Under the pieces are notes generated by a model. It was not told the DNA's origin. It saw only the letters and a program-made list of their open reading frames with translations, and did no database searches. A DNA stretch of 41,002 nt from Cohnella sp. (GTDB lineage Bacteria; Bacillota; Bacilli; Paenibacillales; Paenibacillaceae), in the NCBI GenBank assembly GCA_028287445.1, contig JAQBPQ010000144.1:1-41002 (forward strand). Direction: 5' to 3'. Of the stretch, positions 362-32,751 are shown in pieces (the stretch's first letter is position 1; each line of letters begins with the position of its first letter). The position numbers were made by a program, and so were the translations under genes.

Positions 362-402
362 TCCCGAACGGCTGTGCATTTGCAGCCTGCTCGGGATTTT
401 TT
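362..402 (+). terminator. Rho-independent terminator after the GH15 gene
   Basis: TCCCGA...GGCTG..CAGCC...TCGGGA followed by TTTTTT. Confidence 0.8.
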
Positions 403-404
403 GC

Positions 405-503
405 ACGTTTCAGAAAAGTATAAGTTGTCACCTATACTTTTCTGAAACGTCTCCGACATAAACGTATACTGCCATCCAAGGACGGCGACACCCGTTTATA
501 CTT
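405..503 (+). repeat. Copy A of a ~99-nt two-hairpin intergenic repeat
   Basis: Perfect 18-bp stem ACGTTTCAGAAAAGTATA/TATACTTTTCTGAAACGT with 10-nt loop, then CTCCGACATAAACG...GGACGGCGACACCCGTTTATACTTG; near-identical to 32653-32751. Confidence 0.85.
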
Positions 504-813
504 GTTTATGGAACTTATCATGGGAATCCGCATATTTTGGGGCTTGATAAGCCCTCTCCAAAGTGCGATCGGAAAAAGCGGGCAAAGCCCAAGCGCGGCG
601 CGGGGCGGACGGGGTTTTTCCGGTACGAAAAAAACAGTTGCATTTCGGGCGGATAGATGTTATTTTTAGTTTCGTTGACAACACAATAGGAACCAGGATT
701 CACTCAGGAATGGAATGCGATCAACGAGCAAATTCCCTCGAGAAGTGAATGACGTAGGTCCTAGCGGATGAAATCAGCTTCACATTTTATTCCTAGGAAG
801 GGGGAACCGAAAG

Positions 814-17357: not shown

Positions 17358-17378
17358 CCCAATAATATGGACTTAAGA

Positions 17379-17416
17379 AACCTTCAGCTCCGTTAATTTT
17401 GGAGCTGGAGGTTTTT
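17379..17416 (+). terminator. Rho-independent terminator after murC
   Basis: CCTTCAGCTCC-GTTAATTTT-GGAGCTGGAGG-TTTTTG. Confidence 0.9.
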
Positions 17417-17420
17417 GTCC

Positions 17421-17520
17421 ATCATTCGGGATTTATAAGTTTGCACCGCTCATCTCTGAATGATCTCCGACATCAACGTTTACCACCGCGATGAGGACGG
17501 CGATAGTCCGTTTATGCTTG
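17421..17520 (+). repeat. Copy C of the two-hairpin repeat (diverged)
   Basis: ATCATTC..TTATAAGTTTGCACC..GAATGAT then CTCCGACATCAACG...GGACGGCGATAGTCCGTTTATGCTTG. Confidence 0.75.
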
Positions 17521-17522
17521 GC

Positions 17523-17621
17523 TATTCAGAATTTATAAGTTTCACTCTTATCTATTTCTGAATATCCTCCGATAAAAACGGGTCCGCACTCTTGAAAGGA
17601 TGGCGAAGCCGTTTTTACTTG
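17523..17621 (+). repeat. Copy D of the two-hairpin repeat (diverged, tandem to C)
   Basis: TATTCAGAA..TTATAAGTTTCACT..TTCTGAATA then CTCCGATAAAAACGG...GGATGGCGAAGCCGTTTTTACTTGG. Confidence 0.72.
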
Positions 17622-32604: not shown

Positions 32605-32650
32605 AAGCCGACCGTTTGCCGCCGCGAAAGCGCAGCTCGGTCGGCTTTTT
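32605..32650 (+). terminator. Rho-independent terminator after obgE
   Basis: AGCCGACCG...CGGTCGGCT-TTTT. Confidence 0.85.
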
Positions 32651-32652
32651 AC

Positions 32653-32751
32653 ACGTTTCAGAAAGTATAAGTTGTCACCTATACTTTTCTGAAACGTCTC
32701 CGACATAAATGTATGCTGCCATCCAAGGACGGCGACAGCCGTTTATGCTTG
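32653..32751 (+). repeat. Copy B of the two-hairpin repeat
   Basis: ACGTTTCAGAAAGTATA-AGTTGTCACC-TATACTTTTCTGAAACGT then CTCCGACATAAATGTATGCTGCCATCCAAGGACGGCGACAGCCGTTTATGCTTG. Confidence 0.85.

Follow-up and report, generated by a model that had tools for sequence, protein, structure and literature searches.

What is the two-hairpin module of about 99 nt that recurs directly behind transcription terminators in Cohnella, and how does it reach these sites? The question is raised by a contig of 41,002 nt from Cohnella sp. (GCA_028287445.1, JAQBPQ010000144.1, positions 1 to 41,002; hereafter the window), which belongs to a fragmented genome assembly of 3.3 Mb in 278 contigs that is 78% complete (G000). 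A preliminary description had recorded four such modules in the window, all on the + strand and all intergenic, and had proposed either a small mobile, MITE-like element targeting terminators or a structured 3'-end or sRNA-type element. All four were present as claimed, both in the sequence and as matches of 61.5-102.7 bits to a covariance model (R2) that was built from 50 copies out of several Cohnella species and replaces an earlier model of stem 1 only (R1) (Table 1). The spacing given for the copies at 405, 17421 and 32653, which start 2, 4 and 2 nt past the T-tracts of the GH15 (domain PF00723), murC-type and obgE terminators, was likewise correct. While the module sites stood, the ends of two units had to be moved: copy A runs to 504, with the conserved CTTG included, and the second unit of the tandem pair begins at 17521 instead of 17523.

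Table 1. Element copies in the window and the intrinsic terminators that precede them.
Feature	Position	Strand	Remarks
Intrinsic terminator of GH15 gene (gene end 347)	362..402	+	T-tract 397-402; 2-nt gap to copy A
Element copy A, type I	405..504	+	R2 match 91.3 bits; sequence; ssDNA fold z -6.8
Copy A, hairpin 1	405..450
Copy A, linker CTCCGAC	451..457
Copy A, hairpin 2	458..499
Copy A, terminal CTTG	501..504
Intrinsic terminator of murC-type gene (gene end 17357)	17378..17416	+	T-tract 17412-17416; 4-nt gap to element
Element copy, type II (stem ATCATTC../..GAATGAT), terminator-proximal in tandem pair	17421..17520	+	R2 71.8 bits
Second tandem copy, more diverged	17521..17621	+	R2 61.5 bits; fold z -4.6; start abuts 3' end of copy 17421..17520
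obgE intrinsic terminator (gene end 32600)	32606..32650	+	T-tract 32646-32650; 2-nt gap to element
Element copy, type I, behind obgE	32653..32751	+	R2 102.7 bits; orthologous site empty in some 20 other Cohnella genomes

The element is non-coding, about 95-102 nt long and composed of hairpin 1, which opens at its first base, a conserved linker CTCCGA, hairpin 2 and a terminal CTTG; two subfamilies were distinguished, type I (ACGTTTCAG/CTGAAACGT) and type II (GATCATTCAG/CTGAATGATC). The automatic consensus fold returned stem 1 only, as gaps in the alignment caused it to miss hairpin 2, which was entered by hand and then tested. In stem 1, 85.3% of the cells were paired and 154 were double-changed, compared with 50.6 in shuffles, and sliding the stem by one to three columns reduced the double-changed cells to 14-30. 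Columns 1-5 of this stem interchange freely among GC, CG, AU and UA, and TCAG/CTGA, CTCCGA and CTTG are the near-invariant parts. Stem 1 had G-U pairs in 8 of 599 cells and hairpin 2 in 14 of 600, a scarcity that suggests a better fit to DNA hairpins than to RNA. Three of the window copies fold far beyond chance (ssDNA z -6.8, -5.6 and -4.6); the own fold of the diverged copy at 17421 is not unusual (z +0.3). The perfect 18-bp hairpin with which the module had been introduced exists in copy A but is private to it and no trait of the family: the copy at 32653 opposes AAA to TTTT there, and both murC copies (17421 and 17521) pair mainly in a lower stem of about 9 bp. The perfect arm of copy A, which is AAA/TTTT in its sisters, looks like the outcome of quasipalindrome correction.

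The own genome of the window holds about 50 copies, with copy A finding dozens of places by blastn and the covariance model retrieving 55 at E <= 0.01. R2 matches were obtained in 31 of 37 Cohnella genomes at 0 to 110 copies per genome (G022, 110; G026, 89; G024, 69; G006, 46; G023, 21; G012, 1; G013, 0). An order-level sample yielded matches in 65 of 300 genomes and 17 of the 49 genera sampled. When 301 genomes were sampled at class level, matches were confined to members of the same family. No match was found in the phage, plasmid and IMG/VR viral-contig collections searched with the element, no Rfam 15 family reached its gathering score (only weak miRNA-type chance matches appeared, also when copy A was searched permissively), and no earlier description of the family was found in the open-licence papers searched. 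Several contigs of draft assemblies stop inside element copies, and these repeats appear to break the draft assemblies of carrier genomes. Two loci (L001 and L002) share a common 3' flank and differ upstream, L002 finishing at a contig end, a pattern that may reflect an assembly break in a repeat.

Further repeats were seen in genome G110. At L189, L191, L199, L205, L206, L208, L230 and L235, hairpin 1 of the main element is interrupted at TTCTTA|TATTTC by a second double-hairpin element (CCACATTAGAAAGTTTAAGTTC...GGCTCCGTTAGGAGCTTTTTTTA), which ends in a terminator of its own; at L136 this second element follows the terminator of a gene and has the main element directly behind its own terminator, so that the two use one another's ends in a nested way. 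A third, non-coding repeat of roughly 500 nt with much the same AAATATAAGAAAGTATAAGTTT start is found mostly behind terminators (L219, L226, L229, L234 and L237), and parts of it match Paenibacillus cellulosilyticus plasmids.

Among 142 distinct copies, 107 had an intrinsic terminator ending at the first base of the element, in fixed orientation, as did 60 of 81 in a smaller, earlier copy set. Terminators were found in 2-5% at most other control offsets, with an upstream maximum of 10% at -100, and in 6 of 142 cases in the mirror-image test; the raised value 10 nt beyond the 3' end (33 of 142) probably stems from hairpin 2 itself and from tandem copies. About a quarter of the copies had no clear upstream terminator by the test used. 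The distance between terminator and element peaks at 0-4 nt, and the upstream flank consists of a GC-rich stem and a T-tract with T at 82-87% at -7/-6, 89% at -3 and 63% at -2, followed by any base at -1, that is, a TTN motif in an otherwise loose T-tract. The 3' end of the element, CTTG, obeys the same TTN rule, and tandem units are joined as CTTG followed by the next unit. A proposed rule that new tandem units are always added next to the terminator was abandoned, since L010 and L011 fit it and L150 does not. Four copies, in G000, G024, G006 and G110, directly follow T-box leaders; the target is therefore the terminator structure rather than a gene's 3' end in itself. Random insertion followed by survival of only those copies that are tolerated behind terminators is extremely improbable as the source of this pattern: although the region behind terminators is a safe haven, T-box leaders are not, and neither the fixed orientation nor the 0-4 nt peak nor the preference for T at -3 is predicted by it.

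The suspicion of the preliminary description that the element is mobile and targets terminators is supported: copies that are nearly identical have sharp boundaries at unrelated sites, single species show expansions, orthologous sites can be vacant, and terminators adjoin 75% of the copies. In G110, near-identical units with identical ends occupy about twenty unrelated sites. Behind obgE, only G000 carries the element among the sites read; roughly 20 other Cohnella have an empty site, and in many sister species the terminator runs straight into the next gene. G008 has TTTTTTACAACGAAATTGAC at this position, compared with TTTTTAC, the element and then CGAAATCGCC in G000, so that nearly the same flank exists without the element. 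Terminal inverted repeats are absent, the ends ACGTTTCAG... and ...CTTG being unrelated and the palindromy internal, and no excess of matching flanks indicative of a target duplication was detected at k = 2-7 in the 142 copies. Mobility and terminator targeting are supported, but the label MITE in its strict sense is not. The three outcomes that the preliminary description had named as speaking against its reading (four copies only, no covariation, random placement) were found in none of the genome searches, the covariation analysis and the terminator test. Its second proposal, a cellular RNA element (3' UTR stabiliser, secondary terminator or sRNA) kept near terminators by selection, is disfavoured and very unlikely. 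The structure is conserved with covariation, and most copies lie downstream of genes, where read-through would transcribe them, but copies also follow T-box attenuators in 5' leaders, copy number is patchy and lineage-specific with bursts in single species and absence from related ones, orthologous sites are vacant, the element nests with other repeats in G110, and it contains no U-tract of its own.

In G019, a group II intron (RF02003; L154) lies directly behind obgE at the terminator where G000 carries the element; the obgE terminator is one site chosen by two unlike elements. Tandem repeats of about 59 nt (GGTACCTCTTCCCACTGTTGC...) were observed after the obgE terminator of another genome (G033, L157). 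According to PMC7161350 (citing Robart 2007), group IIC introns enter immediately behind intrinsic-terminator hairpins and in one orientation, as the element does in its 107 of 142 cases. These introns are ribozymes with a reverse transcriptase, whereas the element has 99 nt and its carriers can lack the maturase domain; no Rfam group II model detected ribozyme domains, whether across the window or when copy A was searched permissively. An RNA-mediated spread, in which a reverse transcriptase copies a small structured RNA into terminator sites, much as group IIC introns enter them by reverse splicing, and which would make the element a SINE-like satellite of a retroelement, group II or other, would account for the target shared with group IIC introns, which need the terminator stem-loop (PMC7161350), for the intron of G019 at the same terminator, and for a few copies that are shortened on the 5' side directly behind terminators (L032 and L033). 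We nevertheless regard it as unlikely: the element has no group II signature and no Rfam match, few G-U pairs occur, and internally deleted copies in G000 (L041, L043 and L044) retain both ends. The group II maturase was also rejected as driver, as it showed no correlation with copy number, its domain being absent from the genomes with 110, 89 and 21 copies (G022, G026 and G023) and abundant (13 genes) in G012 with 1 copy.

Elements of the IS200/IS605 group and their miniature derivatives (PATE-type) have end hairpins, no inverted ends or target duplication, a T-rich left target and a lagging-strand preference (PMC6006769). The element resembles them in its hairpins near both ends and in the absence of terminal inverted repeats and target duplication, but its target is a hairpin plus T-tract instead of a strict tetranucleotide, and it has no guide tetranucleotide 5' of the left hairpin; an internal left guide has no room because hairpin 1 begins at the first base. 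REP/RAYT repeats (GTAG and CGTC families) are structured, intergenic, species-specific and clustered (PMC3733652, PMC6006769), and so is the element; however, a REP is a hairpin of 20-65 nt that carries a tetranucleotide tag, whereas the element has two unlike hairpins in fixed order, and no GTRG tag is present at the hairpin foot, the flank being TTN and the linker CTCCGA. That a Y1 (HUH) transposase is the specific mover, acting on a miniature derived from IS200/IS605 or on a REP/RAYT-like repeat, is an unlikely explanation. In its favour are, besides the shared end structure and T-rich left target, the resemblance of the right end TTG to the left TTN, the head-to-tail arrays, the lagging-strand-type orientation, and the Y1 genes found in 12 of 37 Cohnella as well as in G110, G114, G127 and G111. 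As the driver, however, Y1 was rejected: it does not correlate with copy number in Cohnella, being absent from the complete genomes G024 and G006 (69 and 46 copies) and from G019 and present in G013 (0 copies), and it occurs in only 5 of 11 many-copy relatives. Moreover, the IS200-like loci of G110 have no ends in common with the element, and no Y1 gene was found flanked by these ends.

bcr1 and other repeats of Bacillus cereus are described in PMC3446304 as taxon-restricted structured intergenic repeats of Bacilli, some of them MITE-like. The element is also a taxon-restricted structured intergenic repeat of Bacilli but belongs to a different taxon, the two being set side by side by description only. 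We know of no reported terminator targeting for bcr1-type repeats. Double-hairpin elements of fungal mitochondria are likewise mobile and built of two hairpins, by a mechanism that is unknown, but sit in organelle genomes; to our knowledge, terminator targeting has not been reported for them either. By the features tested, the element is outside the strict MITE, REP, IS200/IS605 and group IIC families.

We therefore consider it probable that the family is a non-autonomous mobile DNA element whose insertions, all in one orientation, are made at the 3' foot of hairpin-plus-T-tract structures, after TTN and without duplication. Its mobility (copy pattern and vacant sites), target structure, orientation, missing duplication and conserved two-hairpin fold are directly backed by the data, and it works like a terminator-targeting, single-strand-type element. 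The element probably moves as single-stranded DNA, a route that fits because of the hairpins near both ends, the lack of inverted ends and duplication, the similar motifs at the cut sites, the arrays and a modest leading-strand-sense excess. The substrate would probably be the lagging-strand template, on which the hairpins of the element and the target hairpin can both form, and the CTTG end of hairpin 2 could serve as target for another copy, giving head-to-tail arrays. A preference for the lagging-strand template is documented for IS608 and ISDra2 (PMC6006769). Pooled, 49 of 52 copies were in leading-strand sense compared with 76 of 92 gene-end terminators (one-sided p = 0.04); as this excess is modest, the strand bias, which seemed total in G024 alone (26 of 26), is only suggestive, and it is as expected with that template as substrate. 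Movement would be driven by a trans-acting HUH-type or comparable enzyme that may be absent or unrecognised in many present carriers; no mobilising gene was found. More tentatively, it is possible that new machinery, neither Y1 nor a group II reverse transcriptase, reads terminators and spreads a double-hairpin superfamily in Paenibacillales, in which at least two further related G110 elements would share the hairpin-1 end or motif, with each landing at the ends of the others.

Group IIC introns are known to target terminators; for small non-autonomous elements no such targeting was found in the literature searched. Since the family is abundant and limited to one order in the samples searched, it offers a tractable system for the recognition of a hairpin plus T-tract and for the enzyme that moves it. 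For the carrier genomes, insertions behind T-box attenuators put a strong hairpin into regulated leaders.
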